From Acidobacteriaceae bacterium (GTDB lineage Bacteria > Acidobacteriota > Terriglobia > Terriglobales > Acidobacteriaceae), in the NCBI GenBank assembly GCA_030041515.1, contig JASHNS010000041.1, positions 1-49,887 on the forward strand: a stretch of 49,887 nucleotides of DNA. The letters run 5' to 3'. Below the pieces are notes generated by a model that saw nothing but the letters and a program-made list of their open reading frames with translations, ran no database searches and was not told the origin of the DNA. Shown here one piece after another: positions 21,690 to 45,280 of this stretch. Position 1 is the stretch's first letter, and each line of letters begins with the position of its first letter. The translations under genes and the position numbers were made by a program.

Positions 21690-21695
21690 TACAAT
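21690..21695 (+). promoter_or_regulatory. -10 box for a probably leaderless mRNA (first GT87 gene)
   Basis: TACAAT followed by exactly seven nt and then the ATG at 21703, with no ribosome binding site. Transcription would begin at or next to the start codon. The -35 is weak. Confidence 0.5.
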
Positions 21696-21702
21696 CGCGG
21701 GC

Positions 21703-22893
21703 ATGCCTCAGCCTGCGGGCGGTCCCGAAGCCGGTACGAAGCCTGGCCTCTCCGACATCGTGATGGTGGTAGCCTGCGCGCTCTCGCTGACCTCGACGGG
21801 CGTCGCGCTCGCCATTCTGCCCCTCGGCCACAACTTTGCCGGAGCGCGAGATTTCGCGTTTTTCTGGGCCACAGGCCATCAGTTGATCCACCATGGCAAT
21901 CCCTGGAGCGCTGCGGCGATGGGTGCGCTGGAGCGGTCCGCTGGATTTACCGGACACGGCGCGTACTTCATGCGCAATCCGCCGTGGGCACTGCCGCTGA
22001 TGTTGCCACTGGGGTTTTTCAGCGCGCGAGTGGATGCTCTGCCATGGTCACTGCTGCTGATCGGCGTGCTGGCTGTGGCGCTGGAATCGCTGTGGAAGAC
22101 GTTTGGGCGGCCACGCAATCCGATCGACTGGCTGGGCTATTGCTTTCCGCCTGCGCTGATCTGCGTTGCGATGGGACAGACCTCCCTGTTTCCTCTGCTC
22201 GGTATGGCATTGTTTCTCCGCCTGCACAGCAGTCGGCCGTTTTGGGCGGGGGCTGCGCTGTGGTTCTGCACGCTCAAGCCGCATCTGCTGCTGCCCTTCG
22301 CGGTTGCGCTGGGGGCATGGATTGTGGTGTCGCGCAGTTACCGCGTGGTACTGGGATTGTTTGCCGCTCTTGCGGCCAGTTCCCTGCTGGTCACGGCTCT
22401 CGATCCTGCGGCATGGGTGCAGTATCTTGCCTGGGCGCAGCACTCCGGGATCGCGCACGAGGCGGTTCCCTGCCTTGCCGTGGAGTTGCGGGCGCGGATT
22501 GCCCGCGCGAAAGCGTGGCTGGATTTTGTGCCGGCTGGGATTGCGTGCGTCTGGGCGGCGGGATATTTCTGGCGGCAACGAACCTCCTGGAACTGGCTGG
22601 ATCAGGGCGGACTGCTTCTGCTGGTGTCATTGGTGGTGGCGCCGTATTGCTGGATCAACGATCAGTGCCTCGCGCTTCCGGCTCTGTTGTTCGCTGCATC
22701 GCGTTGTGACTCGCGGCGGCTGCTCGGAGTGTGGGGAGGATTCTGCCTGGTGCTGGCATCGCAGGTGTTTCTGGTTGGGCGGCTTTATTCGGGGTGGTAT
22801 TTGTGGCCGGCGCCAGCGTGGCTGATCTGGTTTCTTTTCGCGCGAGCGTCGGCTCGACGCAGCGTGGGTGAGGAACGCCCAGCCCTGGCCTGA
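21703..22893 (+). CDS. GT87-family (DUF2029) membrane glycosyltransferase, copy 1
   Basis: Encodes 396 residues with about 9-10 hydrophobic spans. A conserved acidic loop follows the first span: ARDFAFFWATGHQLIHHGNP, then FMRNPPWALPL and the later WFCTLKPHLLLPFA. This matches the GT-C fold family 87, whose mycobacterial members are mannosyltransferases using polyprenyl-phosphate mannose on the outer face of the membrane. The Asp in ARDF is the likely catalytic base position. It is the first of three consecutive family members on plus; copy 2 is clearly its tandem paralogue. Acceptor and sugar are unknown. The start follows a TACAAT box by 7 nt and lacks a ribosome binding site. Confidence 0.8.
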   Translation: MPQPAGGPEAGTKPGLSDIVMVVACALSLTSTGVALAILPLGHNFAGARDFAFFWATGHQLIHHGNPWSAAAMGALERSAGFTGHGAYFMRNPPWALPLMLPLGFFSARVDALPWSLLLIGVLAVALESLWKTFGRPRNPIDWLGYCFPPALICVAMGQTSLFPLLGMALFLRLHSSRPFWAGAALWFCTLKPHLLLPFAVALGAWIVVSRSYRVVLGLFAALAASSLLVTALDPAAWVQYLAWAQHSGIAHEAVPCLAVELRARIARAKAWLDFVPAGIACVWAAGYFWRQRTSWNWLDQGGLLLLVSLVVAPYCWINDQCLALPALLFAASRCDSRRLLGVWGGFCLVLASQVFLVGRLYSGWYLWPAPAWLIWFLFARASARRSVGEERPALA

Positions 22894-22942
22894 GCAGATA
22901 CCTCCCCGCAAAGTGGAATCGCTGATGGAACGGCGCGGCCCG

Positions 22943-22948
22943 TAGAAT
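22943..22948 (+). promoter_or_regulatory. -10 box for a probably leaderless mRNA (second GT87 gene)
   Basis: TAGAAT, then seven nt, then ATG at 22956; no ribosome binding site. The geometry is identical to that before the first copy, as if promoter and gene were duplicated together. Confidence 0.5.
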
Positions 22949-22955
22949 CGCCTCG

Positions 22956-24143
22956 ATGGCCCAGCCTATTGTTAGCCGTAAGCCAGACGCGAATTTCGCC
23001 GGACTGATCATTGCCGTGGCCTGTGGGCTGACCCTTGCCTTCACAGCGCTCTACCTGTGCGTGATCCCGTTCAACCGGTCACTGTCTGTTTCCCGCGATT
23101 TCGTTTTCTACTGGGCGGCGGGGCAGCAGTTAGTCCACCACCTGAATCCCTGGGATCCGGTGATGGTGAGCCAGGTGGAGCATGCGGCGGGATTCACGGC
23201 GCAGGGATCGTATTACATGCGGAATCCGCCGTGGGGGTTGGTGCTGGCATTGCCTCTTGGATTCCTGCCGCCGCGAGTGGGCGCCCTGCCATGGTCGCTG
23301 CTGCTGCTTGCGGTGGCGTGGATCTCGGTTCGGCTCGTTTGGTCGACGCTCGGCCGCCCCGGGAATTTCGTTCAGTGGCTTGGCTACGCCTTTTTTCCGG
23401 CGCTGCAATGCGTGGTGATGGGGCAGACTTCGGTCTTCCCGCTGCTCGGGCTCGCATTGTTTCTGCGCCTGCATCGATCGCGGCCGTGCTGGGCGGGCGC
23501 GTCGCTGTGGTTTTGCATGCTCAAACCGCATTTGTTCATGCCCTGGGCGATTGTGCTGTTCGCGTGGATCGCGGTGACGCGTGCCTGGCGCATTCTGGCC
23601 GGCGGCGCAGCGGCGATGGCGGTGAGTTGTCTGGTGACGGAGTTGCTGGATCCGCATGCGTGGACGCAGTATCTGGCATGGGCGCGAAGCTCCGGCGTTT
23701 CGCAGCAATACATTCCCTGCCTGAGCGTGGAGCTGCGGGACCTGGTAAGCCCCGGCCGGGAGTGGCTCGCATTTGTGCCGGTGGCCCTGGCCTGCATATG
23801 GGCGCTCGCCTGGTTCTGGCCGCGGCGGCAGACCTGGGACTGGATGAGCGACGGAAACCTCCTGATCCTGGTATCGCTGGTTGCGGCGCCGTATTGCTGG
23901 TTTTCAGATCAGTCGGTGGCGATGCCCGCGCTGCTGGCCGCGGCGGCGTGCACGCGATCCCAACAGATTCTGGGCGCGCTGGGGGCGCTGTATCTGATGG
24001 TGCTGATCCAGCCCTATGCGTTCAGCGTAGGTGTCACGTCGAGGTTGTTCCTGTGGACGGCGCCGGCGTGGCTGGTGTGGTATCTCTGCGCGCGGGCTCC
24101 GGCTCTCCGCGTGCGGCCCGCAATCGAAGCCTCGCCGGCGTAG
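22956..24143 (+). CDS. GT87-family (DUF2029) membrane glycosyltransferase, copy 2
   Basis: Encodes 395 residues, a close paralogue of the preceding gene over the whole length (compare SRDFVFYWAAGQQLVHHLNP, YYMRNPPWGLVLALPLGFLP, WFCMLKPHLFMPWAIVLFAW). About ten membrane spans and the same conserved Asp after the first span argue for a GT-C fold enzyme using a lipid-linked sugar on the outer membrane leaflet. It lies 62 nt after copy 1 and has its own TANAAT box. Divergence between copies suggests different acceptors rather than gene dosage. The overlapping +2 frame stays open through this gene only because of base composition. Confidence 0.8.
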   Translation: MAQPIVSRKPDANFAGLIIAVACGLTLAFTALYLCVIPFNRSLSVSRDFVFYWAAGQQLVHHLNPWDPVMVSQVEHAAGFTAQGSYYMRNPPWGLVLALPLGFLPPRVGALPWSLLLLAVAWISVRLVWSTLGRPGNFVQWLGYAFFPALQCVVMGQTSVFPLLGLALFLRLHRSRPCWAGASLWFCMLKPHLFMPWAIVLFAWIAVTRAWRILAGGAAAMAVSCLVTELLDPHAWTQYLAWARSSGVSQQYIPCLSVELRDLVSPGREWLAFVPVALACIWALAWFWPRRQTWDWMSDGNLLILVSLVAAPYCWFSDQSVAMPALLAAAACTRSQQILGALGALYLMVLIQPYAFSVGVTSRLFLWTAPAWLVWYLCARAPALRVRPAIEASPA

Positions 24144-24214
24144 CGGATCGCTGCCCCGATGGTGCTATGCGAGCTCCCGTACCGGGGGTTTTATACTTGC
24201 GGCGAGACTTCAGC

Positions 24215-25504
24215 TTGACGTCGACTTCCACAGCCACCCGCGCGCCAGGAACGCAGCGGCAGGTCGTTCTGATGATTCTGCTGGCGCTCGTGGTCGCTGC
24301 CCCTTTCGAGTACATCCATATCGTGAACCGCTCGATCCCGAGCCAGCGCACCGGGTTGCTGCCGCGGTGGGTTGGGACGCGCGCCGCGCTGCACGGGGAG
24401 GATCCCTACTCACCGGCGGTGCTGCAGGAGATTCAGACGGCGTTCTACGGGCAGGCGCTGGCGCCAGGCGAGAAGGAGAATCCGGAGAAATTCCTGTATC
24501 CGGCCACGGTGATTCCGCTGCTGGCTCCGCTGGCGCTACTTACGTGGCCGGCTGCGCGGGTCGCTTTCCTCGCCGTCACGGTTCCTCTTCTGGGGCTGGG
24601 ATTTTGGTTGTGCCTGGGAGCGCTGCCGTTGCGCTGGACAGCACGGACACGCGCAGTGACTGTGCTTTTGGCGCTGGCCGCGTGGCCGACAATGTGGGGA
24701 TTCCGCGTTCTGCAATTGACGATGCCGGTGGCGGCGTTCATTTTTGTCGCCTGGTATCTGCTGGCGCGCAGGCACCCGGTTCCGGCGGGAATTCTGCTGG
24801 CACTGGCGACGATCAAGCCGCAACTGATGCTGCCGCTCCTGCTGGCCTTGTTCGTCTGGGCGCTGTTTCGGCGGCAGTGGGCGCTGCTGGTGTCGTTTGT
24901 GGCGGCGATGGCGGTGCAACTGGCGGTGGCCCAGATGCTGGTGCCTGGCTGGTTTCCGCACTGGCGGGCCTCGCTGCGGAACTACACGGGAGTAACGCAG
25001 ACAGCGATGCCGCTGGAGCATCTCTTCGGCCACTGGGCGGGGCTGGTGATCACGCTGGCTCTGGCTACTGCTGCGCTGATGGCCTTATGGAGGGCACGCC
25101 GATCCGCTGCTGACAGCCTCGATTTCGCGCGGGCGATGAGTCTGGTGCTGGCGATCACCGTTTGCTTTGTGCCAACCAGCGTGGCGCTCCTCTACAACTA
25201 TGTGCTGCTGATGCCTGCTTGTGTGCTGCTCGCCTTCAGCCAGCCCAGCGGAACGTGGGCGTGGCTATTGCGGCTGATGGCCCTGGGGCAGCTCGGATTC
25301 GATTATTTACTGGTGACGCTGGGCGGGATCACAGGCCTGGCGGGGCACGTTCCCGCCGTCGTGGCCTGGCTAAGCTTTTCCGATTATTTGCTGCCGGCGC
25401 TGACCACCCTTGCGCTGACGCTCCAGATGGTCGAGAGCCGGGGGATCGAGGCGGGCGGCCCGTCCGCCGGAACCGCGCCGATGCAATCCGGCCTGGTAGA
25501 CTAA
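24215..25504 (+). CDS. GT87-family (DUF2029) membrane glycosyltransferase, copy 3
   Basis: About 429 residues with roughly ten spans. It is more distant from the two upstream copies but keeps family features: an early loop with HGEDPYSPAVLQEIQ and a central LALATIKPQLMLPLLLALFV, the equivalent of the KPHL segment in copies 1 and 2. The start is uncertain. The frame is open far upstream inside copy 2, so the start must be after 24143; TTG at 24215 follows the probable -10 box TATACT (24192-24197), while TTG 24197 and ATG 24272 are alternatives. Likely role: sugar transfer from polyprenyl phosphate to a cell-envelope glycan or protein. Confidence 0.72.
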   Translation: MTSTSTATRAPGTQRQVVLMILLALVVAAPFEYIHIVNRSIPSQRTGLLPRWVGTRAALHGEDPYSPAVLQEIQTAFYGQALAPGEKENPEKFLYPATVIPLLAPLALLTWPAARVAFLAVTVPLLGLGFWLCLGALPLRWTARTRAVTVLLALAAWPTMWGFRVLQLTMPVAAFIFVAWYLLARRHPVPAGILLALATIKPQLMLPLLLALFVWALFRRQWALLVSFVAAMAVQLAVAQMLVPGWFPHWRASLRNYTGVTQTAMPLEHLFGHWAGLVITLALATAALMALWRARRSAADSLDFARAMSLVLAITVCFVPTSVALLYNYVLLMPACVLLAFSQPSGTWAWLLRLMALGQLGFDYLLVTLGGITGLAGHVPAVVAWLSFSDYLLPALTTLALTLQMVESRGIEAGGPSAGTAPMQSGLVD

Positions 25505-25540
25505 GAGCCGTACTGACTCTTAATCCCCAGGAGAATGCAC

Positions 25541-25789
25541 ATGTCCGAAGTAAAGATCACGGTTCGCCCCAATGGGCCTTATCGCGTGGAAGGCCCGATC
25601 AAGCTTGTGGATGCAGAAGGCCGCGAGTGGGATCTTACCGGCAAGGCGGCGGTCTCCCTGTGCCGCTGCGGCGCGTCAGTGAATAAGCCTTTCTGCGACG
25701 GCACGCACTCGAAGATGGGGTTCCAGGCGGCGGAGGCCGCGGTGCGCGCGGAAGAGGGGAGCACCCCCGGATTCCCTGTAAAGATTTAG
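25541..25789 (+). CDS. CDGSH-type iron-sulfur protein
   Basis: Encodes 82 residues from the ATG at 25541, which has AGGAG seven nt upstream (an ATG at 25535 is too close). The CDGSH finger is complete: LCRCGASVNKPFCDGTHSKM, with Cys41, Cys43, Cys52 and His56 as ligands of a labile 2Fe-2S cluster. Such proteins act in redox sensing or cluster transfer; the exact job is unknown. The N-terminal half (VEGPIKLVDAEGREWDL) is the usual short beta extension of bacterial members. Its stop overlaps the end of the convergent yjbQ gene by four bases. Confidence 0.9.
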   Translation: MSEVKITVRPNGPYRVEGPIKLVDAEGREWDLTGKAAVSLCRCGASVNKPFCDGTHSKMGFQAAEAAVRAEEGSTPGFPVKI

Positions 25790-26175
25790 CTGGTTTTCAG
25801 GAAGTCCAGTGTCAGTTCGCGGCGGCGCGGGCCATCCAGTTCGATGAGGATGACGCGCTGCCACGTGCCGAGCACGAGCGACCCTTCCCGCACCGGCAAG
25901 GTGAGCGCGGTGCCGATGAGCGTCGACAGGATGTGATCGGGCACGTGCTGAGGATCGTGCGGATGCCGGTATTGCAGCTTCGGCATCATGGCTTCGAAGG
26001 CATCCAGCATGTCGAGGTCAGTGCCAGGATCGAGGTCAGCCGTGGCCAACGCCGAGGTGGTGTGCAGGACGTTCAGGAAGCAGATGCCGGAGTCTTCCGG
26101 CAGCATGCCGTCCACCGGTTCGGTGATGTCGACGATTTCACGCTTGCGATGGGTGGCGACGGTGAATGTCTTCAT
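25786..26175 (-). CDS. YjbQ-family (UPF0047) protein
   Basis: Encodes 129 residues, the typical length. The family pattern is intact: NVLHTTSALATADLDPG, a histidine-rich middle (YRHPHDPQHVPDH) and LVLGTWQRVILIELDGPRRR. Family members form trimers with a metal-like histidine cluster; some show weak thiamin-phosphate synthase activity, but the true role is not settled. The ATG at 26175 has GGAGG eleven nt upstream. It lies 29 nt downstream of neighbouring... the PBP gene ends at 26205 on the same strand upstream, so the two may be co-transcribed. It converges with the CDGSH gene. Confidence 0.88.
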   Translation of the reverse strand: MKTFTVATHRKREIVDITEPVDGMLPEDSGICFLNVLHTTSALATADLDPGTDLDMLDAFEAMMPKLQYRHPHDPQHVPDHILSTLIGTALTLPVREGSLVLGTWQRVILIELDGPRRRELTLDFLKTS

Positions 26176-26204
26176 CGCGGAACGTGCCTCCTGAAGCTCA
26201 GCTT

Positions 26205-28844: not shown

Positions 28845-28974
28845 ATGAGGAACCTGCTTTCCAGTTTAGACGACGGAGAAGGCCGCTTCGACGTGATGGA
28901 ACCAGCGGCGGCACGTACCCTGAGGAGTCCGATGCGAAAACGACGCGTCAGGGCGGCGATTCAACGCAATTTGC

Positions 28975-30759: not shown

Positions 30760-31134
30760 GGATTCTTCTTTGTACCTTTGCTTTTCGCCCGGAGCCGGAC
30801 GAGGGAGTGTGCGATGCGATGCTCCATTTTAACTGGGTGAGCCTGCGCACCGTTCGAAACAGCTCGATGGCTATGCGGGCTGCGGTGCTGGGGCGGCTGA
30901 GCTGCGAGAGGAGCGGCTCGCGTGGCCGAGAGTGGGTAACGCCACCGTCGATCCCCCGGGGGGACGTGAGTTCGATGTAGACACTTCTGGTTACTTCGGT
31001 TTGTTCGTGCGTGACTTCTGCTACTGCGCTGTGACATGCTGAATTACCACTCATTTTGAGCGTACTTTGCCAATCCAGCGGAATTTCGGGCCGAGCCTGG
31101 AATGTGCTGAGTACGGACACGCGCAGGTTTCGTG
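30760..31134. other. Noncoding gap between proS and the diguanylate cyclase gene
   Basis: This 375-base gap separates divergent genes and should carry both promoters. I see no gene. A short GC palindrome (CCCCCGGGGG near 30950-30965) lies inside CGTC...GACG arms. I searched for a c-di-GMP riboswitch before the GGDEF gene and a T-box before proS and found neither. Confidence 0.5.
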
Positions 31135-32307: not shown

Positions 32308-32337
32308 GGGCTGCTACCCAGTTCGGGTCGTCCGGAA

Positions 32338-32982: not shown

Positions 32983-32994
32983 TCGCGGCGCCCC

Positions 32995-33417
32995 TTAGAC
33001 CGCCTGCGCGCAGAGCTCATTGAATGCGCGCGACAACTCCTCCGCGATCAGCTGCGGCGTGCTGTTCTCAATGACGAAGCGCTGCATGAGGTAAACAAGC
33101 TTGCCGTCGCGGAGAATGGCAACCGCCGGAGAGGTAGGCGGATTCCCTTCGAAATACGAACGCGCGCGCTCCGTGGCTTCCCGATCCTGGCCTGCAAAGA
33201 CGGTGACGGACCGGTCCGGAGTGACGGCGTTCTTCAGCGCCATCCGTACCCCGGGGCGCATCTTGCCGGCCGCGCAGCCGCACACCGAATTCACGACGAT
33301 CATGGTGGTGCCTGGTTTGGCTGCGGCGCTGTCGACAGCCTCCGCCGTGCGTGCCTCTTCGATTCCGGCGCGGGTGAGTTCCTCGCGCATGGGGATCAGC
33401 ATGATCTCGGGATACAT
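32995..33417 (-). CDS. Bacilliredoxin (BrxA/BrxB family, YphP/YqiW-type)
   Basis: Encodes 140 residues starting MYPEIMLIPMREELTRAGIE. The active site CGC (Cys46-Gly-Cys48) is in NSVCGCAAGKMRPG, exactly as in bacilliredoxins, which remove bacillithiol from oxidised protein thiols. Other family words are VTVFAGQDREATERAR and LMQRFVIEN. It implies that the host makes bacillithiol, as Acidobacteriota are known to. GGAGGA eleven nt before the ATG is its ribosome binding site, and TACAAT (33480-33485, minus) a probable -10 box. It leads the operon with the methyltransferase and is divergent from murB. Confidence 0.93.
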   Translation of the reverse strand: MYPEIMLIPMREELTRAGIEEARTAEAVDSAAAKPGTTMIVVNSVCGCAAGKMRPGVRMALKNAVTPDRSVTVFAGQDREATERARSYFEGNPPTSPAVAILRDGKLVYLMQRFVIENSTPQLIAEELSRAFNELCAQAV

Positions 33418-33515
33418 TCGTCTTAGTTCCTCCGCTTACTTCAGATGCCTGTCCGTGCCAATACGGGTGGGTAATCGATATTGTACGTAGAGCCTTGGCG
33501 CTGCGCCACCGCCTG

Positions 33516-33521
33516 TACTAT
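33516..33521 (+). promoter_or_regulatory. -10 box of murB, probably leaderless
   Basis: TACTAT followed by nine nt and the murB ATG, with no ribosome binding site. TTGGCG (33495-33500) is a possible -35 at a short 15-nt spacing. Confidence 0.4.
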
Positions 33522-33530
33522 CTCTTTTAG

Positions 33531-34553
33531 ATGCTTCTTCAGGAACAGGTACCGCTGGCTCCGCTGACGACGTTCGGCATCGGGGGCCCGGCCCGCTGGC
33601 TGGCTGAAGCGGACAGCGAGAAATCCCTGGTGGAAGCCGTTTCGTACGCGCGGGAGCGTGGCGTTCCCCTCTTCGTTCTGGGCGGGGGCAGCAACGTGCT
33701 GGCGGCGGACGAGGGCTTTCCGGGGGTGGTGGTCCGCGTGGCCATGCGTGGCATCCAGAAGGACGGCAATCGCTTTCGGGTGGCGGCGGGCGAGGACTGG
33801 GATGCATTTGTCTCCCATGCGATTGAACTGGGCTTTGGGGGGATCGAGTGCCTGGCAGGAATTCCTGGAACGGTCGGCGGAACGCCGGTGCAGAATGTAG
33901 GGGCTTACGGCCAGGAAGTCGCGGACACAATTGCGTCGGTGCGCGTGCTCGACTTAAAGAGCATGGCGTTCTCCGAGTTACCGTCCACGGCGTGCGCGTT
34001 CGGCTACCGGCGCAGTATTTTCAACACGAGCCATCGGGGGCGGTTCGTTGTCACCCAGGTGGAGTATCGGCTGCGGACGGGGGCTTTTCCGGTCATTTCC
34101 TACCCCGACATCAAGCGGCACTTCCAGGGCCGCAGCCAGCCGCCTTCGCTTGCGGAGGCAGCGGCTGCGGTGCGTGAAATCCGTCACGGCAAGGGCATGC
34201 TGCTGGTGCCGGGCGAGGCAGATTGCCGCAGCGCAGGCAGCTTCTTCAAGAATCCCCTGATTGCGGAGGCGCGATACGAGGCAATCTCCGCTGTGGCGGG
34301 GTACCCGGCACCTCGATTCGCGGCGGCGCGGGGGTTCATCAAGATTCCGGCGGCCTGGTTGCTGGAAGAGAGTGGATTCCGCAAGGGTTTCGTGATGGGG
34401 AACGCGGGCATCTCCAGCCGCCACACATTGGCGCTGATCAATCGAGGAGGCGCGACGGCGAAGGACATTCTGGCGCTGCGCGACTGGATCGTGGGCGCGG
34501 TCGAAAAGAAGTTTGGAATCCGGCTCGAGCCCGAACCTGTCTGGCTCGGCTGA
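33531..34553 (+). CDS. murB: UDP-N-acetylenolpyruvoylglucosamine reductase
   Basis: Encodes 340 residues, E. coli (type I) length. MurB reduces the enolpyruvyl ether with NADPH to give UDP-MurNAc in peptidoglycan synthesis. FAD-binding words include TTFGIGGPARWL, FVLGGGSNVLAADEGFPG, GIPGTVGGTPVQNVGAYGQE and FGYRRSIF. The proton-donor serine is in GSFFKNP. The C-terminal part with IPAAWLLEESGF and GNAGISSRHTLALIN is complete. It is outside a mur cluster; neighbours are bacilliredoxin (divergent) and an MFS gene (convergent). Translation of the ATG seems to rely on a leaderless mRNA. Confidence 0.96.
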   Translation: MLLQEQVPLAPLTTFGIGGPARWLAEADSEKSLVEAVSYARERGVPLFVLGGGSNVLAADEGFPGVVVRVAMRGIQKDGNRFRVAAGEDWDAFVSHAIELGFGGIECLAGIPGTVGGTPVQNVGAYGQEVADTIASVRVLDLKSMAFSELPSTACAFGYRRSIFNTSHRGRFVVTQVEYRLRTGAFPVISYPDIKRHFQGRSQPPSLAEAAAAVREIRHGKGMLLVPGEADCRSAGSFFKNPLIAEARYEAISAVAGYPAPRFAAARGFIKIPAAWLLEESGFRKGFVMGNAGISSRHTLALINRGGATAKDILALRDWIVGAVEKKFGIRLEPEPVWLG

Positions 34554-34603
34554 GCGCGGCCGGATGGCGGATTGAAGGCGGGCGACGGCCGGATGAGCTG
34601 TTT

Positions 34604-35734
34604 CTACCTGATCACTACGAGCACCGCAAGGTTCAGGACCACCATCAGCACGGCTGAGGCGGGAATTACGAGGAGCGCCTTGCGCAGACGGGCAGGATCG
34701 CCGCCCGCGATGCTGCCGATGACGCGGGAACTGATGGCGAGTCCAGCCCAGCCGAAGGTGATGACAATGCCCATCGCCGTTCCGGTGATCTGCGGAAAGG
34801 CGCCCCCAACGATGGCGAGGGTGGTGGGAAAGACGGGGGCCATGGAGAGACCCGCGGCAAAGACCAAAACAGCGGCCATCCAGCGGCCTCGCGCGCGCAG
34901 CATGAGGAGCGTGGTGAAAGCCATGCAGACGGCTGCACCCAGGGTGACGTGCGCGGGCGTCGCATGCGAAAGAACAGGCAGCACACCTACGCGTCCGCTG
35001 AGGAGGCCCAGGGCAAAACCCAACGACAGGATGTTGAGCGCGGATTTTTCCGGCACGCCCTGCGCGATCAGGTGGCGGACAAGCCAGTTCCAGACCCCGA
35101 CTTCACAGCCGATATAGAGGAACATGAAGAAGCTCAGCAGCCACAGCAGAGGATTGGCCATGGCTGGGCCGGCTTCCGCGAAAAAGCGGCCCGTGGGCAG
35201 GGCGACCGGCATGCGCGTAGCAGCCTGGACCACCAGCGTGGCGAGGGTGATGCCAACAATCAGGTAGCACAATCGAACCCAGCTGCGTTTGAGCAGGTTG
35301 GCCGCGAGGAAGGGCGTTGCCAGCGCGCCGAGACCAAAAAAGATGTTGACGAGGTTCAGCGTGACGGCGCGATGCGCGGGGCTGACGGCGCTGGCCAGGG
35401 CGTCGGCCCCGGTGGTCACGATGCCGCCGCCACTGCCCAGGATGAAAAGCAGGAGGACGATGCCGCGGAATCCGGTGACGCGCGGCAGAGCGAGCAGAGC
35501 AAGCGCCATGAGCGCCAGGCCGAGGATCAGGCCGGGCTTGTCGCCAACATTGTCGAGCAGCGGCCCCACGCTCAGCGACGCAAGCATCAGCCCCAGTGCC
35601 TGAGCCAGGGCGATCGTGCCGTTTTGCCGCGGCGTCAGCTCAAATCGTTTGGAGAGCTCCGGAAGGATGGTCCCCAGCATGGACCCGGTCATGCCGTAGA
35701 CAAAGATCGCGATCACCGCGGCAAAGATGAGCAA
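34604..35734 (-). CDS. MFS transporter, probably sugar or sugar acid
   Basis: Encodes 376 residues with about 11-12 hydrophobic spans. The loop after span 2 carries a motif A-like DNVGDKPGLILG, and MLIFAAVIAIFVYGMTGSML starts span 1. The compact size and wording resemble the FucP-like/sugar MFS group. It lies 43 nt after the TIM-barrel isomerase on minus and next to KDG kinase and KDPG aldolase, so uptake of a hexuronate or aldonate is a reasonable guess. The substrate cannot be read from sequence. Confidence 0.82.
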   Translation of the reverse strand: MLIFAAVIAIFVYGMTGSMLGTILPELSKRFELTPRQNGTIALAQALGLMLASLSVGPLLDNVGDKPGLILGLALMALALLALPRVTGFRGIVLLLFILGSGGGIVTTGADALASAVSPAHRAVTLNLVNIFFGLGALATPFLAANLLKRSWVRLCYLIVGITLATLVVQAATRMPVALPTGRFFAEAGPAMANPLLWLLSFFMFLYIGCEVGVWNWLVRHLIAQGVPEKSALNILSLGFALGLLSGRVGVLPVLSHATPAHVTLGAAVCMAFTTLLMLRARGRWMAAVLVFAAGLSMAPVFPTTLAIVGGAFPQITGTAMGIVITFGWAGLAISSRVIGSIAGGDPARLRKALLVIPASAVLMVVLNLAVLVVIR

Positions 35735-35777
35735 GCTCAGACTCCGAAGGCCAGTTGCCCGATGGCCGGCTGGCGGT

Positions 35778-36737: not shown

Positions 36738-36857
36738 GGCAAGCGCTCCCGGCTTCCGCCCATGTGTGTCTGCTGCAAGCAGCCATGATAGCGCGAGCTG
36801 CGATTTATACCATGCCCCGTTTGGTGGAGTTCGGCAGCCTTCGGCGACAATGGAGCT

Positions 36858-37955
36858 ATGCACACTCTTCAGCTGAAGGAAGGCCCATCGCGCTGGGAGC
36901 TGCTTGCTCTCGGCGAGGTCATGCTCCGGCTCGATCCACTGGAAGCCCGCATCCACACGGCGCGCCATTTTCAGGTGTGGGAGGGCGGCGGCGAGTACAA
37001 CGTCGCGCGCGGCCTGCGGCGCTGCTTCGGTCTTCGCACGGGCATTGTGACGGCTCTTGCCGATAACCCGGTGGGACGCCTGATCGAGGATCTGATGCTG
37101 CAGGGCGGCGTGGACACGACACTGGTCCGCTGGGTTCCGTACGACGGCGTGGGCCGAACGGTGCGGAACGGGCTGAATTTTACGGAGCGGGGCTTTGGCG
37201 TGCGCGCGGCGGCAGGCTGCTCGGATCGCGGACACACGGCCATCGCCCAGGCGCAGCAGGGCGCATGGGACTGGGAGGCGATCTTTGGAGCCAGCAACGG
37301 CGCTCGCTGGTTCCACACGGGCGGGATTTTTGCGGCGCTTTCTGAAAGCACCCCGGCGGTCGCGGCCGAAGCCATCGCCGCCGCCCATCGCGCAGGAACG
37401 CCGGTGTCGTACGACCTGAATTATCGCGACTCGCTGTGGAGAGCCATCGGGGGAAAAGCACGGGCGCAGGAAGTGAACCGGGAGCTGGTTCGCCAGGTGG
37501 ACGTGCTGCTGGGCAACGAAGAAGATTTTGCAGCGATGCTGGGAATTACGGTGCAGGGCGTTTCTGACGATTACGTGGAACTGCCGGCAGCCGCCTACGA
37601 GGAAATGCTGCGCGAAGTGGCGAGCGCTTATCCGAACCTGCGGCTGATTGCGACCACGCTGCGCACCGCTCATACGGCTACACGCAATGCATGGGGCGCG
37701 ATGGCGTTGTCCGGAAACGAAATCGCGCACACGCCGCAGCGGGACATCGAGATCCTCGATCGCGTCGGCGGGGGAGACTCGTTCGCGTCCGGGCTGATTT
37801 ATGGCCTGGTCCAGGGCAAGGGGGCTGAGTGGGCGGTTCGTTGCGGGGTAGCTCATGGCGCGCTGGCGATGACGACTCCCGGCGACACCAGCATGGCTAC
37901 GCTGGCTGAGGTGGAACGTGTGATGCAGGGCGGGTCAGCGCGGATCGCGCGATGA
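36858..37955 (+). CDS. kdgK: 2-dehydro-3-deoxygluconate kinase (PfkB family)
   Basis: Encodes 365 residues. PfkB signatures: LGEVMLRLDP and GGGEYNVARGLRR near the start, YDLNYRDSLW in the middle, and the C-terminal DRVGGGDSFASGLIYG with catalytic Asp307. The RLDP and EYNVARGL wording is typical for KDG kinases rather than ribokinases. It makes KDPG, which the next gene, eda, would split. GACAAT lies six nt before the ATG, another case of the leaderless-type arrangement, although GGAG also sits close by. About 40 residues longer than E. coli KdgK, mostly within 105-130 and 225-245. Confidence 0.9.
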   Translation: MHTLQLKEGPSRWELLALGEVMLRLDPLEARIHTARHFQVWEGGGEYNVARGLRRCFGLRTGIVTALADNPVGRLIEDLMLQGGVDTTLVRWVPYDGVGRTVRNGLNFTERGFGVRAAAGCSDRGHTAIAQAQQGAWDWEAIFGASNGARWFHTGGIFAALSESTPAVAAEAIAAAHRAGTPVSYDLNYRDSLWRAIGGKARAQEVNRELVRQVDVLLGNEEDFAAMLGITVQGVSDDYVELPAAAYEEMLREVASAYPNLRLIATTLRTAHTATRNAWGAMALSGNEIAHTPQRDIEILDRVGGGDSFASGLIYGLVQGKGAEWAVRCGVAHGALAMTTPGDTSMATLAEVERVMQGGSARIAR

Positions 37956-38020
37956 GGCGGACCGCAAAATGGGTTGAACCTGTGCAGCCGGCCGCGAGCC
38001 GAGGGGAGAGGGACTGAATC

Positions 38021-38674: not shown

Positions 38675-38706
38675 TCAACCATCCCCGTGGACGCGGCAGA
38701 ACCCGC

Positions 38707-38712
38707 TACAAT
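38707..38712 (+). promoter_or_regulatory. -10 box for a probably leaderless mRNA (nth)
   Basis: TACAAT, seven nt, then ATG at 38720; no ribosome binding site. The spacing equals that of the two GT87 genes. Confidence 0.5.
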
Positions 38713-38719
38713 TCCCTCC

Positions 38720-39487
38720 ATGCCCGCGAAGAAAGCCACAAAGAAACAGCAGCGCAGAACCTCCTCAAGTCCGGCGCCGAGCAAAGCGCAGCAACCTGCC
38801 AGGGCGTTGAAGGCGAAAGCCGCCGGAAAATCGGCAAACGCGACCGATCCAGCGAGGATCGCAGAAATTCTGCGACGGCTGGCGGCCGCGTATCCCAACG
38901 CCGAGTGCGCCCTGCACCACCGGAGCGCCTGGGAACTGCTGGTGGCGACCATTCTGTCAGCTCAGTGCACGGATGCGCGCGTCAACATGGTGACCCCCTC
39001 GCTGTTCGGGAAATTTCCGACGCCGGCAGCGTTCGCGCAGGCGACGCTGCCGGCCATCGAGGAGGAGATTCGTTCGACTGGGTTCTATCGCAACAAGGCG
39101 AAATCCGTATCGGGTGCGGCGAAGAAGGTTGTGGCGGAATTTTCCGGGAAAGTTCCCGACACGATGGATCAGCTCCTGACGCTGCCGGGCGTTGCCCGCA
39201 AGACCGGAAACGTTGTTTTGGGCGTCGCGTTTCAGAAGGCAGAGGGGGTGGTGGTGGACACCCACGTTCTGCGGCTTTCCCGTCGACTGGGGCTCACGAG
39301 GGCGGAGGACCCGAAACGCGTGGAAGAGGACCTGATGCGGATGATTCCCAGGGAGCGCTGGATCAGCTTCTCTCACGAGCTGATCCAGCATGGACGCCAG
39401 ATTTGCATTGCGCGGAAACCGCGCTGCGTCGATTGTCCGCTGGAGACGCTCTGCAACGCACCGGATAAGACCTGGTCGAGCCACTAA
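38720..39487 (+). CDS. nth: Endonuclease III
   Basis: Encodes 255 residues from the ATG at 38720. A basic Lys/Ala/Ser-rich tail (1-40, MPAKKATKKQQRRTSSSPAP) precedes the core. The helix-hairpin-helix LPGVARKTGNVVLGV carries the catalytic lysine, VVVDTHVLRLSRRLG the catalytic aspartate, and CIARKPRCVDCPLETLC the 4Fe-4S cluster (C-x6-C-x2-C-x5-C). It removes oxidised pyrimidines in base excision repair. The N-terminal extension is longer than in E. coli (211 residues in all). It ends 8 nt from the end of the convergent histidine kinase gene. Confidence 0.96.
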   Translation: MPAKKATKKQQRRTSSSPAPSKAQQPARALKAKAAGKSANATDPARIAEILRRLAAAYPNAECALHHRSAWELLVATILSAQCTDARVNMVTPSLFGKFPTPAAFAQATLPAIEEEIRSTGFYRNKAKSVSGAAKKVVAEFSGKVPDTMDQLLTLPGVARKTGNVVLGVAFQKAEGVVVDTHVLRLSRRLGLTRAEDPKRVEEDLMRMIPRERWISFSHELIQHGRQICIARKPRCVDCPLETLCNAPDKTWSSH

Positions 39488-39495
39488 TGGGGCAA

Positions 39496-41271
39496 TCAGG
39501 CGGTGGCAGTCTCGATATCTTCGGAATCCTGGCTCGTTGTCAGCCCATGGAGGGGCATGGTCGCGATGAACGCGGTCCGCATGCTTCCGGCGCCGTTGCG
39601 CTCTTCGAACTCCAGAGTTCCGCCGTGGCGCGTCATGATCTCGCGCGATACCCACAAGCCGAGGCCGGTGCCGACATCCTTTTTCGTCGTAAAGAAGGGC
39701 TCGAACAAGCGCTCGCGATCCCTGGCTGCGATGCCTGCGCCATCATCCTCTACGACAATCTGCACGCAGCCGGGTGACGCACCGTAACGCAGACTCACCC
39801 GGATCCTGCCTCCTGTCCCGACGGCGTCCGCTGCGTTGGAGATGAGGTTGGCGAGCACCTGGCGGATCTCGCCGCCCAGCACAACGACGGGAGGGCAGGG
39901 AGCCAGCTCCGTCTCCACCACGATCTCCCTGGCGCGCAGCTTGTTCTCGTGCATGGCCAGAACGGAGCGAACCAACTCGCCAAGATCCGCAGGGCCGGCC
40001 TCCGCGGTTTCGCGATAGAAACCGAGTGTTTGCCGCGCGATCAGAGAGACCCTGACCAATTCCTGCTCTGCCGCCGACAAATAGCCGGTTACGTCGTCGG
40101 GCAGATTCGGCGACAGGCGCGCGAGGTAGACAAGATTCCCCACGGCTTCGAGCGGGTTGTTAATCTCGTGAGCCATGGTTGCGGCCAGACGGGCTGCGGC
40201 CGCCAGTTTTTCCGTCCGGCGCATGAGCTCCTGGGTTTTGCGCGCACCGCTGGCATCGCGGAAGACGAGCACGACGCCGACAATCCCACCGCTGTCGTCA
40301 CGAATGGGAGAAGCGCTGTCCTCAATGGGAACGAGCGCACCATCAGAGCGCTCAAGGACTGTGTGATTCGCCAACCCCACCACAAGTCCCAGCTCGAGCA
40401 CCCGTCCTACGGGATTCTCGACGGGCTTGTGACTGTACTCGCCGAAAATGCGAAACACATCCTCGATTTGTTTGCCTTCCAGAGCGCCCATTTCGAGGCC
40501 GAGCAACTTTTCCGCAATCGGGTTCACGAAGGTCACGCGGCCTTCCCGATCCGTCGCGATCACAGCGTCTCCCAGGCTGGTCAGGGTCGCGCGGAACCAC
40601 TCCTCCCTTTCGACGAGATGCCGTCCATGGCGTTCCCGCAGGCGTCCCTCGCGCAGGATGGCAAGGCCCAAAAGGAGGAGGCCCAGAGCCGCCACAGCGC
40701 TGGTTACATAGACGCTGGTCACCGTCAGCCGCGAGTTCCTGCGGTAAGCCGCAGTCCGCAGGTCTTCCAGTCGATCCTCTTCGGACTGCATTCCGGAGAT
40801 CTCCGCGTTGATCTGCACCGCCAGAGCGCGGCCCACGTCTGTCAGCACAAGCGCCCGGGCCTGGGCAGCGTGGCCGGCGTTGTACAGTGCCAGGGTTCGC
40901 CCGAGCTCATTGAATTTGGCGCCCACCAACCGGCGCAGCCTGGCAATCGCAGCGACTTGCCGAGGATTGTCGGCAGTCAGCTGAGCTAATGCGTCCAGGT
41001 CCCCGCGGACCCTCGCTTCCGCGCCCTTATAGGGAGCCAAATAACGATCGTCGCCGGTGTAGAGATATCCCCGCTGGCCGGTTTCGGCCTCCAGGACCAG
41101 ATTTCGGGTTTCAGCCAGCGCGTACTTCACCTCGCGCGAGTGGGCAACCGAGGCCGCAGCTCGTTCCTGATTGATGAGTTCGCGCCGAGTAATCCAGCCG
41201 TTGAAAATGAGCAGGAGGAGGAAGGCGGCAAAGGCGGCGACGATTTGGATATGCCTTCGGGTTGGTGGCAT
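39496..41271 (-). CDS. CHASE3-PAS sensor histidine kinase
   Basis: From the ATG at 41271 it has 591 residues (GTG at 41325 is an alternative). Span 1 (about 7-25) and span 2 (about 180-203) bracket a CHASE3-type periplasmic helical domain (ETGQRGYLYTGDDRYLAPYK). A PAS domain follows (FRATLTSLGDAVIATDREGR, GVVLVFRDASGARK), then HisKA with the phospho-acceptor in TMAHEINNPLEAV and HATPase (LANLISNAADAV, DDGAGIA, GTGLGLWVS). No response regulator gene is adjacent, so it is an orphan kinase. TATAGT (41291-41296, minus) is a likely -10 box. Confidence 0.92.
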   Translation of the reverse strand: MPPTRRHIQIVAAFAAFLLLLIFNGWITRRELINQERAAASVAHSREVKYALAETRNLVLEAETGQRGYLYTGDDRYLAPYKGAEARVRGDLDALAQLTADNPRQVAAIARLRRLVGAKFNELGRTLALYNAGHAAQARALVLTDVGRALAVQINAEISGMQSEEDRLEDLRTAAYRRNSRLTVTSVYVTSAVAALGLLLLGLAILREGRLRERHGRHLVEREEWFRATLTSLGDAVIATDREGRVTFVNPIAEKLLGLEMGALEGKQIEDVFRIFGEYSHKPVENPVGRVLELGLVVGLANHTVLERSDGALVPIEDSASPIRDDSGGIVGVVLVFRDASGARKTQELMRRTEKLAAAARLAATMAHEINNPLEAVGNLVYLARLSPNLPDDVTGYLSAAEQELVRVSLIARQTLGFYRETAEAGPADLGELVRSVLAMHENKLRAREIVVETELAPCPPVVVLGGEIRQVLANLISNAADAVGTGGRIRVSLRYGASPGCVQIVVEDDGAGIAARDRERLFEPFFTTKKDVGTGLGLWVSREIMTRHGGTLEFEERNGAGSMRTAFIATMPLHGLTTSQDSEDIETATA

Positions 41272-41506
41272 AAGGGCCTGTAACTTCGCCACTATAACCG
41301 GAAAAAGCGCTTCCCTCAATCGCACCTCGGCATACTTTCGGAGGCGCGAGTTGTCCGCCAGCCGGCCGATGACTCTCCGGTCCTCCTCAGGGGGAATACA
41401 CAGGTGCGTGTGCTGTTATAAAAGTGCTACTCTACCTCCGCATCGTGCTGCGGCCGAACGGCCAAAGCATCCTGCTTCCGAATGCGGGTTCCCGTGGAGG
41501 CGGATT

Positions 41507-43009
41507 ATGCGTGCAATCGCTGTACCATCTGCAGCAACGTTCCTCGCTCTTGTTCTAACCGCGCCCGTTCTCACCGCACAAAGCATCGCCACCGTATCCC
41601 CTTCGCCTGGGATGTCCAAAGTGCGCATCGTGCGTCTGAGCGAAGTGATGGGAGCGGTGCAAATGGATCGCGGGGTCGGCCGCGGTTTCGAGCCGGCGAT
41701 CGAGAACCTCCCCGTGGTCGAATCCAGCCGCATCCAGACCGAAGCGGGCGCCGCCGAAATCGAGTTCGAGGACAACAGCACGGTGCGCGTAGCTCCTGAC
41801 AGCGAGGTCGATTTTCCTGAGCTGGAGCGCACCGCATCCGGAGTCCCGGTAACGGAAGTGCGGGTGGTTCGCGGCATGGCCTATGTGAGTTTAGTGAAGA
41901 ACCGCAACAGCGATTTCACACTCGTGTTCGGGCCTGACAAGAAGCCGGAAGCGCTGCGTCTGCTCCCTGCGAGCCACGTACGGCTGCGGACGAATGCGAT
42001 GGAAGCGCAGCTCGCCGTGCTGGGTGGAACAGTCCAGGTGGACGGTGCCGACGGGGCGATCACTGTTCCGCGCAAACGAACGGTCTCCTTTTCGTTCACG
42101 CAGCCGAACCATCCGGCGATTAGCAAAGATGTGGCACCAGAATCGCTCGACAAGTGGGACAGCCAGTCGGCCGAGTATCACGCGCAGAAAGCGACGCTTT
42201 CCGCCTTCGGCAACGCACCTGCTTCTTATGGGCTGAACGACATGGCGTACTACGGAGCTTTCAACAATGCCGGAGGCTGCGGAATGATGTGGCAGCCCTA
42301 CTTCGCCGGGGCAGCGTGGAATCCTTATTCTGCCGGCGTGTGGGCGTGGTATGGCAACGCGGGATATTCCTGGGTTTCGCCCTATCCCTGGGGATGGATG
42401 CCGTATCACTACGGCTCCTGGTCGTATTGCCCGGGGAATGGGTGGGGGTGGACGCCAGGGGGCGCGTGGAACGGGCTGGGGAATGTCCCGGCGCTGAGCA
42501 AAGGCATTTTGCCGCGCACAGGTTCACCGCTTCCGCATCCGCCGTCTGGGCCGCCCGCGGCTGGGCGGCTGACGCTGACGCTGGTCACGTCGAGTCCTCT
42601 GGTGGTTTCCGGTATCGACCGGAAGGGCTCGTTCATTTTCCGGCAGGACTCGGCGGGACTGGGCATTCCGCGGCAAGGGTTGGGGAACCTGCGTCACTTC
42701 TCACAAACCAGCTTCCGACGCGGCACAGCGAGCACTCCGGTTTATCTCAGCCTGGATCGAGACAGGGACTCAATGAGCGGCCGTTCCGGGGCGGGAAACA
42801 GCCAGCTGGCGCCGATGACGATCCATCGGGGATTTGCTCCCTCCGCGGAAATGCCCTCCGAAGCGGACTTCGGCGGAATGAACGGCCCCGGAAGTACGTC
42901 ACCCAACAGCGGAGGAGCGAGCCTGCCTTCCCGCGTTTCGGCAATGCCTTCAGGCCCGGCTGCGGGTGGGGCGCCGCGCGGCGGTGGAGCGGCCGGAAAT
43001 CCGCGCTAA
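41507..43009 (+). CDS. Exported FecR-domain protein with Trp/Tyr/Gly-rich repeats (DUF6600-like)
   Basis: The ATG at 41507 has GGAGG six nt upstream and gives 500 residues with a signal peptide (ending VLTAQS). A FecR-like beta domain covers about 35-190 (IEFEDNSTVRVAPDSEVDFP, AQLAVLGGTVQVDG). Residues about 245-330 form a repetitive aromatic region (NPYSAGVWAWYGNAGYSWVS, then PWGWMPYHYGSW), as in DUF6600 proteins. The tail is Gly/Pro/Ser-rich. Its role is unknown; similar proteins are predicted to be surface or periplasmic. It abuts the convergent DUF1440 gene with no base between the stops. Confidence 0.8.
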   Translation: MRAIAVPSAATFLALVLTAPVLTAQSIATVSPSPGMSKVRIVRLSEVMGAVQMDRGVGRGFEPAIENLPVVESSRIQTEAGAAEIEFEDNSTVRVAPDSEVDFPELERTASGVPVTEVRVVRGMAYVSLVKNRNSDFTLVFGPDKKPEALRLLPASHVRLRTNAMEAQLAVLGGTVQVDGADGAITVPRKRTVSFSFTQPNHPAISKDVAPESLDKWDSQSAEYHAQKATLSAFGNAPASYGLNDMAYYGAFNNAGGCGMMWQPYFAGAAWNPYSAGVWAWYGNAGYSWVSPYPWGWMPYHYGSWSYCPGNGWGWTPGGAWNGLGNVPALSKGILPRTGSPLPHPPSGPPAAGRLTLTLVTSSPLVVSGIDRKGSFIFRQDSAGLGIPRQGLGNLRHFSQTSFRRGTASTPVYLSLDRDRDSMSGRSGAGNSQLAPMTIHRGFAPSAEMPSEADFGGMNGPGSTSPNSGGASLPSRVSAMPSGPAAGGAPRGGGAAGNPR

Positions 43010-43561
43010 TCACATGACGGCTCGCAAGGCGCGCCGCAACACTTCAGTGGTTGCGCCGTAGACCAGGTGCGCGGTGAACGGAGTGGCCAGCGACTTCAGG
43101 GGGAACTCCTTCAACGGAGGCGACAGGCGGAACGCCGGAACCGCGATCAGGTCGGCGCCGGCAAAGAGCGCGGTACCGAATCCAGTGCCGAGGCCGGCTC
43201 GCACGGCGCCGGAATACTCCGCGAGGCCACCGTAGAGGGCGCCCATCAAAGCGCCGAATCCGTAATGGACGAGAGGGCCCGCCTTTTGCTTGCCCTCCAT
43301 AGAAAGATGCTGCCCACCTGTGGCAGCCGCCGTAAGGGAGTCGGCGGCCTTCATGGTGGCATCGATCTGAGGCTCGCCGCGATCCTGCCTCAGTTGCTCC
43401 CGCTCGCGTTCCTGGCGCTGTTCGTCCTGGGTCTCCAGTACCTCGTGCAGCTTTGTGCCGGGCCCGGCCATGAAGATGTTCATGGCCCAGGACGCTGCCA
43501 GGCCCGCTCCGGCGCCGGCCAGGATGCCGCGCAGCAGGTGATGGTTCTTCTGATCACTCAT
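43010..43561 (-). CDS. DUF1440 (YagU-like) membrane protein
   Basis: Encodes 183 residues. Hydrophobic segments lie at about 10-30, 100-120, 122-142 and 160-178, with a charged, Gln/Glu/Arg-rich loop between the first two (ETQDEQRQEREREQLRQDRG). GILAGAGAGLAASWAMNIFM and HYGFGALMGALYGGLAE match the YagU/DUF1440 family, inner-membrane proteins linked to acid resistance in E. coli. The ATG has GGAGGAG six nt upstream. It is divergent from the TPR gene and directly abuts the FecR gene. Confidence 0.8.
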   Translation of the reverse strand: MSDQKNHHLLRGILAGAGAGLAASWAMNIFMAGPGTKLHEVLETQDEQRQEREREQLRQDRGEPQIDATMKAADSLTAAATGGQHLSMEGKQKAGPLVHYGFGALMGALYGGLAEYSGAVRAGLGTGFGTALFAGADLIAVPAFRLSPPLKEFPLKSLATPFTAHLVYGATTEVLRRALRAVM

Positions 43562-43636
43562 CAGGCTCCTCCTCTTTCAGGAGATGCGGTGACGGTGGAA
43601 GAGGGTGGATTGGGGAGGCAGGGCCGGACCGCAACC

Positions 43637-43642
43637 TATAAT
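43637..43642 (+). promoter_or_regulatory. -10 box for a probably leaderless mRNA (TPR gene)
   Basis: Consensus TATAAT, nine nt, then GTG at 43652; no ribosome binding site. It drives the TPR-nfeD-slipin-SPOR series. Confidence 0.5.
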
Positions 43643-43651
43643 TCTCTTGTT

Positions 43652-45280
43652 GTGTTTTCTATTCGCCGATTTCGCTTTCTTATCGCATGGGTTTTGCTGG
43701 CCGCCGCAGGAGCCGCGTGTGCCCAGGACCCCGCGCAGAGCAAACCTGCAGGACCGGCGCAGATGCATGGCCGTCTGCTGCTCGTGTTGCCGTTCGAAAA
43801 TCGCAGCGGGCAGGGTGGGCTGAACTGGATCGGCGAGGCTTTCCCCGACATTCTCAATCGCCGGCTGAATTCTTCCGGATACATGGCAATCGGGCGCGGC
43901 GATCGGCTGTACGCATTCGATCACCTGGGGCTGCCGCTGACTCTGGAGCCCTCGCGAGCGATGACGATCCGCATTGCCCAGATGCTGGACGCCGACTATG
44001 TGATCTTCGGCGCTTATACGGCTGACGCGAACCAGCAGTTGACCGCCACGGCGGAGGTTCTGGATGTCTCGGCACTACATTTGGGGCCCAATATCACCGA
44101 AACGGGCCCGCAGGGTCAGCTCGTAAGCCTGATCAACCGGCTGGCATGGAAGGTTGCACGGCAGCTTGATCCGGGCTTCGCCGTCGACCAGCAGACGTTT
44201 CTGGTGGCGGATGGCGATCTGCATACGGATGCATTCGAGGAGTACATTCAGGGGCTGGTGGCCACATCGCCGGACGAGGAACTAACGCACCTTCGGGCGG
44301 CGGTGAAGCTGGACCCGCAGTTTGCTCCCGCGTGGCTGCAACTGGGGCTGGCCTACTTCCGGGACCAGGATTTCCCCGATGCTGCAGCGATGCTGGGACA
44401 CCTGCCTACAGACGATCCGAACGCGCTGGAAGCGGACTTCTACCGCGGCATGGCTTTCTTTCACATGGGGGACTATCGCGAGGCAGAGGATGCTTTCGGC
44501 TTCGACAGCCGGCGGATGGCGCTACCGGAAGTGGTCAACAACGAAGGGGTGGCCGCCAGCCGTCGCGGCAAAGATGCGACGGCGATGTTTCGCCAGGCCG
44601 TGGAGGCCGATCCACGCGATCCGGATTACCACTTCAACCTGGCGATCGCTTTGGCCCGGCATGGCGATACGGCAGGGGCTCTCGCGGAAATCGAAGAGAC
44701 GCTGAAGCTGCGGCCGACGGATGGGGATGCGCAGGCCTTCGAGGTGCAACTGAAGAACCCGCCTCCACCGAATCCGGATCCGGGGCACGCAATCACCGAC
44801 TGGCAGGGGCCGCTGGAGCGCATCAAACCGAGCTACAGCGATACGGAAGTGCGCCAGGCCGCCTTCGAGCTGGAACAGATTCAGGCCATGCATCTGGCCT
44901 CGATGCCGGCGGCTGCGCGCGCAGCCGCGCTGGTCAGGGAAGCGGATGCGTTCTTTCAGCGCGGTCTGGTGCTGGAAGCGGAACGGGAGTATCGTGAGGC
45001 TCTAACCGCGGACTCGGCGTCAGCGCCAGCCCATGCGGGGCTGGCGGCAGTGTGGGAGCGCGATGGAAACCCCGGAGCCGCGCGGCAGGAGGCAAACGCA
45101 TCGATTCAGATTCATCCGAATGCTCCGGCTTATTTGGTGCTGGCCAAACTTGAATTACAGGCCAATCAGGTGGCCGCGGCGCAGCGGGATGTTGCGGAAG
45201 CGCTGCAACTGGATCCGCAGAATTCCGGCGTGAAGGCGGTCCAGGAGGCTGTGCAGAAGCGGGAAAACAGTAGTCAGTAG
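43652..45280 (+). CDS. Exported TPR protein with TolB-like N-terminal domain
   Basis: The GTG at 43652 gives 542 residues with a signal peptide (RFLIAWVLLAAAGAACAQ). Residues about 35-175 look like the TolB-type beta/alpha domain found in TPR regulators (LLLVLPFENRSGQGGLNWIG, MLDADYVIFGAYTADANQQL). Residues about 200-530 are tetratricopeptide repeats (LGLAYFRDQDFPDAAAMLGH, YREALTADSASAPAHAGLAA). It is a periplasmic scaffold or adaptor. It starts a same-strand series with nfeD (29 nt gap), slipin and SPOR genes. The open frame extends upstream to 43067, but that part is antisense to DUF1440. Confidence 0.78.
   Translation: MFSIRRFRFLIAWVLLAAAGAACAQDPAQSKPAGPAQMHGRLLLVLPFENRSGQGGLNWIGEAFPDILNRRLNSSGYMAIGRGDRLYAFDHLGLPLTLEPSRAMTIRIAQMLDADYVIFGAYTADANQQLTATAEVLDVSALHLGPNITETGPQGQLVSLINRLAWKVARQLDPGFAVDQQTFLVADGDLHTDAFEEYIQGLVATSPDEELTHLRAAVKLDPQFAPAWLQLGLAYFRDQDFPDAAAMLGHLPTDDPNALEADFYRGMAFFHMGDYREAEDAFGFDSRRMALPEVVNNEGVAASRRGKDATAMFRQAVEADPRDPDYHFNLAIALARHGDTAGALAEIEETLKLRPTDGDAQAFEVQLKNPPPPNPDPGHAITDWQGPLERIKPSYSDTEVRQAAFELEQIQAMHLASMPAAARAAALVREADAFFQRGLVLEAEREYREALTADSASAPAHAGLAAVWERDGNPGAARQEANASIQIHPNAPAYLVLAKLELQANQVAAAQRDVAEALQLDPQNSGVKAVQEAVQKRENSSQ

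Follow-up and report, generated by a model that had tools for sequence, protein, structure and literature searches.

Several genes of a 49,887-nt contig from an Acidobacteriaceae bacterium (contig JASHNS010000041.1, C74 in our numbering; hereafter the window) carry a TANNNT hexamer a few nucleotides before a start codon that mostly lacks a Shine-Dalgarno (SD) site. We found this box in a preferred register before gene starts throughout the sampled part of the genome, at genes that avoid SD sequences and tend to stand first in their operons, and kept across species. With a probability of roughly 0.87, the boxes are sigma-70-type -10 elements placed for leaderless transcription, with SD-led initiation elsewhere, above all inside operons. 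Transcription would then begin at the ATG or GTG, or within ~4 nt of it, the resulting mRNA would have neither a leader nor an SD site, and ribosomes would take up the 5′-terminal start codon directly, a route that we infer from sequence. About one gene in 10 seems to be read from messages beginning at the start codon.

A TANNNT box in register before gene starts

The window belongs to an acidobacterial metagenome-assembled genome of 4.77 Mb (123 contigs, 99.9% complete), in which no contig gave a match to the bacterial 16S model. The prolyl-tRNA synthetase, which among named records resembles most those of Acidipila rosea and other Acidobacteriaceae (at best 74% identity), places it in the Terriglobia of the Acidobacteriota. 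Counts were made on the window and 59 further usable stretches (60 minus L019, which is all N), amounting to 1.135 Mb or 24% of the genome. The gene caller, written for this analysis, relies on coding potential and start-codon type only and never on upstream motifs (motif-blind). It called 810 genes, and the 778 with 80 nt upstream were used for counts. An SD tetramer was defined as GGAG, GAGG or AGGA within -20 to -4 (present in 309 of the 778 genes, absent from 469) and a strict box as TANNNT with its first T at -16 to -11, with control windows of the same width. A start was considered pinned when the called start was the first start codon of its open reading frame (ORF).

The strict box was present in 75 of the 469 SD-less genes, against 12–17 in six control windows, and in only one of the 309 genes with an SD tetramer; that 75 of the 76 box-positive genes lack the tetramer is partly so by construction. 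The excess over controls corresponds to 60.5 genes, or 7.8% of 778. The initial annotation had expected a genome-wide peak of TANNNT at -13 to -15 before starts without a ribosome binding site (RBS): the peak is present, at -12 (26 of 75) and not in that range, that is with a spacer of 6 nt, and spacers range from 5 to 10 nt among the strict cases. Six nucleotides is also the usual distance from a -10 element to the transcription start site (TSS).

The signal depended on how well starts were defined. At pinned starts the box was found in 47 of 174 SD-less genes (controls 3–8), or ~12% of 341 pinned genes after control subtraction, and where an in-frame stop lies within 5 codons upstream it was found in 24 of 62 (controls 0–3). 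It was weaker, 28 of 295 (controls 5–13), at starts that are not the first of their ORF. Position in the transcription unit also made a difference: 71 of 563 first genes carried a box versus 3 of 172 operon-internal genes. The start codon is ATG in 88% of box genes. Model-free enrichment of 7-mers before starts returned SD-like AAAGGAG together with box-like TACACTG, CTACACT and TAAACTG, and the leading box words were TACACT and TAAACT (7 each of 75). No column upstream of the box reached 0.2 bits, and we claim no -35 element. In 394 of 777 genes both signals, strict box and SD tetramer, were absent.

Boxes of the window and their orthologs

All seven boxes listed by the initial annotation were found where it had placed them, with the spacers it gave; five of them fit the strict TANNNT, the exceptions being GACAAT and TATATC. 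At motif-blind starts of the window the strict box occurs in 5 of 40 genes versus 1.4 expected, these five being three of the listed sites and the starts at 4129 and 11498 (minus strand). The caller put other starts for two listed genes (38942 for 38720 and 43307 for 43652), and after retraining it moved a third, 17357, to 17321; orthologs back the listed starts 38720 and 43652. Conservation was examined on stretches around orthologs of window genes from 11 genus members (G-numbered genomes).

At murB (33531–34553, plus strand), TACTAT (33516–33521) lies 9 nt before the ATG at 33531. A TANNNT or TANNNC in register precedes all 11 genus orthologs. Among 24 family members, our genome included, TANNNT occurs within -17 to -11 in 12 and TANNNC in 8 more (20 of 24), and an SD tetramer in none; upstream control windows contain TANNNT in 13 of 210. 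An in-frame stop touches the murB ATG in the window (TAG), G001 and G009, so the start cannot be further upstream. In the window and across the genus a TG lies just upstream of the murB box, a feature of extended -10 promoters.

The divergent bacilliredoxin gene (Disulph_isomer in Pfam) offers a leadered contrast within the intergenic spacer that it shares with murB: its TACAAT (33480–33485, minus strand) stands 62 nt before the ATG at 33417, and an SD tetramer is found in 11 of 11 orthologs. This distant box, at ~60 nt from its start (ATTGTA at -51 relative to murB), is kept in 8 of 12 genus members. Normal SD sites were likewise seen, as the initial annotation had stated, at the CDGSH and eda-type aldolase genes of the window.

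Other boxes are also kept. TACAAT (38707–38712, plus) lies 7 nt before the ATG at 38720 of an HhH-GPD (endonuclease III-like) gene (38720–39487), and the same hexamer stands 6–7 nt before an ATG in all 9 genus orthologs read. TATAAT (43637–43642, plus), 9 nt before the GTG at 43652 of a TPR protein gene (43652–45280), is present in all 5 orthologs read, and in G009 a GTG follows it at a distance of 6 nt. Two GT87-family genes (21703–22893 and 22956–24143, plus) have TACAAT (21690–21695) and TAGAAT (22943–22948), respectively, each 7 nt before the ATG (21703 and 22956). Both boxes are kept in the single ortholog of each, in G001, where the first gene shows TACAAT-7-ATG unchanged and the second an in-frame stop directly before its ATG. 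These two genes are the first of three GT87-family genes in a row (21703–25504), and at the called start of the third (24272) both the strict box and the SD tetramer are missing.

Two listed sites are less clear. The -10-like GACAAT (36846–36851, plus), 6 nt before the ATG at 36858 of a pfkB-family gene (36858–37955), is followed by GGAG. GANAAT is found 6–7 nt before the ATG in 7 of 8 genus orthologs, and GGAG at the same place as in the window in one of 8 (G009, the one without the box). The gene stays ambiguous because in G005 and G007 the box shares positions with SD-like tetramers. The site before the S10-type peptidase gene (15795–17357, minus), a -10-like TATATC (17367–17372) 9 nt before an ATG at 17357 that is itself uncertain, is the weakest listed, its single ortholog (G001) showing TTTATC. 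Beyond the initial list, TAAAAT (11505–11510, minus) lies 6 nt before the ATG at 11498 of a DHDPS-family gene (10422–11498), and TACGCT (4113–4118, plus), 10 nt before an ATG at 4129, is a weak possible case; neither gene had an ortholog in the stretches searched.

Applied to other genomes, in small samples of 130–232 genes each, the same test found a box excess of 8.5% for the stretches from the genus. At greater distance the figure was 15.4% for G025, which belongs to the order, and 11.4% for G039, which belongs to the class; two family members gave lower values (see below). The claim that leaderless and SD-led initiation coexist is strongly supported by box position, SD avoidance, operon context and ortholog conservation.

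The initial annotation had further proposed an enrichment of envelope functions in the leaderless set, and this found no support: a membrane segment is predicted for 26 of 75 box genes versus 279 of the 702 others (p = 0.46). Outside the window 37 box genes have their box at -12 or -13. When the 20 with pinned starts were scanned against Pfam, 19 matched and one did not, and the matches were mostly metabolic enzymes. Names among them include ALAD, GatC, NAD synthase, a CoaBC-type flavoprotein, a Mur ligase, enoyl-CoA hydratase, a rhomboid protease and two IS200-like transposases. These IS200-like (Y1) transposase genes have their own leaderless-type box at the start (L017 6252–6707 and L047 11002–11367).

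Two further window genes were compared with their orthologs. The Band_7 gene (46738–47547) has a TACAAT ~35 nt upstream. All 5 orthologs read share this box and have a similar leader; the gene is another leadered contrast, possibly with a regulatory leader. The MFS transporter gene (34604–35734, minus) and all 8 of its orthologs read align at a TTG start, several of them with AAAGGAG-like sites.

Competing explanations and known leaderless systems

Several observations weigh against leaderless transcription from these boxes. The exclusion between SD tetramer and TANNNT is partly built in, because both occupy the same positions. murB is mixed at 6 loci outside the family (SD tetramer in 4 of 6, TANNNT in 2 of 6). 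Within the family the excess can be low, 0.5% in G022 (7 boxes; controls 5–9) and 3.9% in G017 (11; controls 2–12), and in G039 first genes exceed operon-internal ones only weakly (13 of 62 versus 8 of 58). A mixture model with free starts and SD, TA and no-motif classes expected 154 TA genes in the real data versus 167–168 in decoy upstream sequence, and 203 when retrained on shuffled sequence. It parted real from decoy only at a posterior >0.8 (72 versus 16–27) and was dropped as an estimator; since it failed against decoys, we relied on the motif-blind counts and pinned starts. Finally, spacers of 8–10 nt, as at murB and the TPR gene, leave room for a leader of 1–4 nt.

This last point leads to the alternative that survives best, although we judge it rather unlikely: the boxes would be -10 elements whose TSS lies a few nucleotides before the ATG, and the short leaders would be bound by the leaderless route or through S1. 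Spacers ranging from 5 to 10 nt (8–9 nt at murB and the TPR gene) fit such leaders, as does the drift of the exact offset seen with the GTG of the TPR gene in G009; the modal spacer of 6 nt in 26 of the 75 strict cases argues for a start at the codon itself.

Much less probable is that the boxes are no promoters but A/T-rich, unstructured translation-initiation sites bound by S1 or directly by the ribosome. Genes without SD are indeed many, including the 394 of 777 with neither signal, and in G039 operon-internal genes show no clear shortage of boxes (8 of 58). However, the signal is TA---T in a fixed register and not a general A/T richness, the genus murB boxes have the TG of extended -10 promoters just upstream, and the box is nearly absent inside operons (3 of 172), where a translation signal is still needed and a promoter is not. 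The remaining explanation, chance or wrong start calls, draws on the uncertainty of gene starts at high GC and on the three listed sites where caller runs differed, but it is already contradicted by the genome-wide counts, by a signal that is stronger at pinned starts and by its conservation in orthologs, those of murB included.

We then compared the boxes with published leaderless systems. Acidobacteria were missing from the lineages named in the initial annotation (actinobacteria, Deinococcus and archaea), though the signal had already been published there: Table 2 of Zheng et al. 2011 (PMC3160421) gives leaderless genes in 3 of 3 Acidobacteria genomes, at a mean of 13.3% (9.7–19.4). That study likewise places TANNNT ~12 bp before the start, and our figures run from 8% (strict excess) to 12% (pinned) of genes. 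It was done in silico on three acidobacterial genomes, whereas the present data come from an uncultured Terriglobia genome and add ortholog footprints and operon context. In Deinococcus-Thermus, promoter function of TANNNT adjacent to ORFs has been shown by experiment (PMC12340547). In D. radiodurans TACACT is the commonest box, ~6–7 bp upstream of the ORF and with no bias to specific pathways (PMC12340547); box and spacing are the same here, and TACACT is among the leading words. The share of genes differs, nearly one third in D. radiodurans (PMC12340547) versus about one tenth here, where 309 of 778 genes have an SD tetramer. Three features expected of TANNNT leaderless genes, namely a 5–10 nt spacer (mode 6) above background, absence of SD and first position in the unit, were found in our genome. 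Leaderless expression is thus very likely here, but not new in kind. A search of the open-licence literature, judged by title and the start of the abstract, returned no acidobacterial TSS map and no further leaderless study; one paper (PMC10783764) concerns anti-SD sequences.

Heptamer arrays in the genus

Directly before the start codons of some box genes of our genome, and of many genes in relatives, we observed repeats such as CCCTGTACCCTGTA. Eleven of the 12 genus genomes contain the pattern CCCTRTACCCTRTA (none in G003; 5 matches in our own). It is absent from the 13 other family members and the 2 class members and occurs once in each of 2 of the 14 sister-family genomes; the reversed pattern is found at most once per genome. 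The repeat unit, CCCTGTA or CCCTATA, produces TACCCT, a TANNNT, every 7 nt. The places with arrays number from a handful to some thirty per genus genome, and a first period-7 scan of our own genome returned 7 only. Examples are L204 18766–18793 (plus), L292 1552–1579 (minus), L047 14895–14931 and L289 1594–1670 (minus); the last has at least 11 perfect units and is itself not before a called start.

Among the matches listed, 114 distinct TACCCT-bearing arrays were examined, with 3 TA-less arrays also in hand. Sixty-four of the 114 end within 40 nt before a same-strand motif-blind start, two of these being also within 40 nt of an opposite-strand start. Nine lie inside opposite-strand genes, one in a same-strand gene, 7 at 41–200 nt before a start and 33 elsewhere, some of the latter because the gene runs off the locus. 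A second scoring, with open-ended ORFs and a limit of 60 nt, gave 81 on the same strand, 10 on the opposite strand and 23 with neither. An SD tetramer was present at 1 of 64 array genes by the first scoring and 5 of 81 by the second.

The box falls in -16 to -11 in 61 of 81 array genes, where 6 of 7 would be expected for any period-7 array touching the start. Because such arrays yield a box anyway, only two results speak to register: across 69 genes the seven possible residue classes are unequally used by the last TANNNT (p = 1.7e-4), and array boxes are distributed much as the boxes of single-box genes are (r = 0.92, Spearman 0.86). TA becomes less frequent from the units next to the start to those further away (35, 30, 21 and 15 of 41), but this trend was rejected as evidence, since the search pattern required a perfect pair and arrays near starts were kept.

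Tentatively, and with somewhat less than even odds, we propose that the arrays have spread in the genus as a ready-made leaderless promoter, which would reinforce genes that are already leaderless or convert SD-led ones. The array abuts the start codon, and its last box would fall in the register of ordinary single boxes. Fourteen orthologs of array genes in our own genome show a single in-register box in 4 (9.6% expected, p = 0.04), an SD tetramer in 2 (40% expected, p = 0.04) and neither in 8. Two genes are candidate switches: a UPF0047-family gene has an SD in the window and G001 and an array in G008, and an AP-endonuclease-like gene is preceded by heptamer repeats in G005, G007 and G011, whereas the window copy and 4 of the 5 orthologs without an array have an SD tetramer.

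Against a promoter role of the arrays, a search without the TA requirement gave a unit core of CCCTGNN, often with dinucleotides other than TA at NN. When the 3′-most listed match in 47 G005 arrays was tallied by hand, TA stood at 21 first and 26 third joints, with little gradient, and G011 has many pure CCCTGCT arrays without TANNNT (contigs C182, C184, C194 and C236). A G-quadruplex role is possible, considering the GGG runs on the other strand (cf. PMC4692102).

Among published repeats, the nearest counterpart we found is in Beggiatoaceae, where TAACTGA direct repeats precede start codons and a post-transcriptional (translational) role was proposed for them (MacGregor 2015, PMC4679880). In both cases heptamer direct repeats lie in forward orientation a few nucleotides before starts, mostly with no RBS, and in patchy lineages. 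The genus arrays differ in phylum and in their unit, which carries TANNNT in the leaderless -10 register. The units used to find them, and of which they are made, are CCCTGTA/CCCTATA and CCCTGNN; TAACTGA itself was not searched for. No paper describing such arrays in Acidobacteria or as leaderless promoters was found in our searches of the open-licence literature.

A promoter signal inside seven-letter repeats would be unusual, and the arrays are the part of this work that could surprise. If they are promoters, repeat expansion would be a route to evolve leaderless expression, and the genus would hold a natural, species-by-species series of switches from SD-led to leaderless genes. The single boxes add evidence, at the level of orthologs, for leaderless expression in a soil phylum that is large and mostly uncultured, and they affect the annotation of gene starts in Acidobacteriota.

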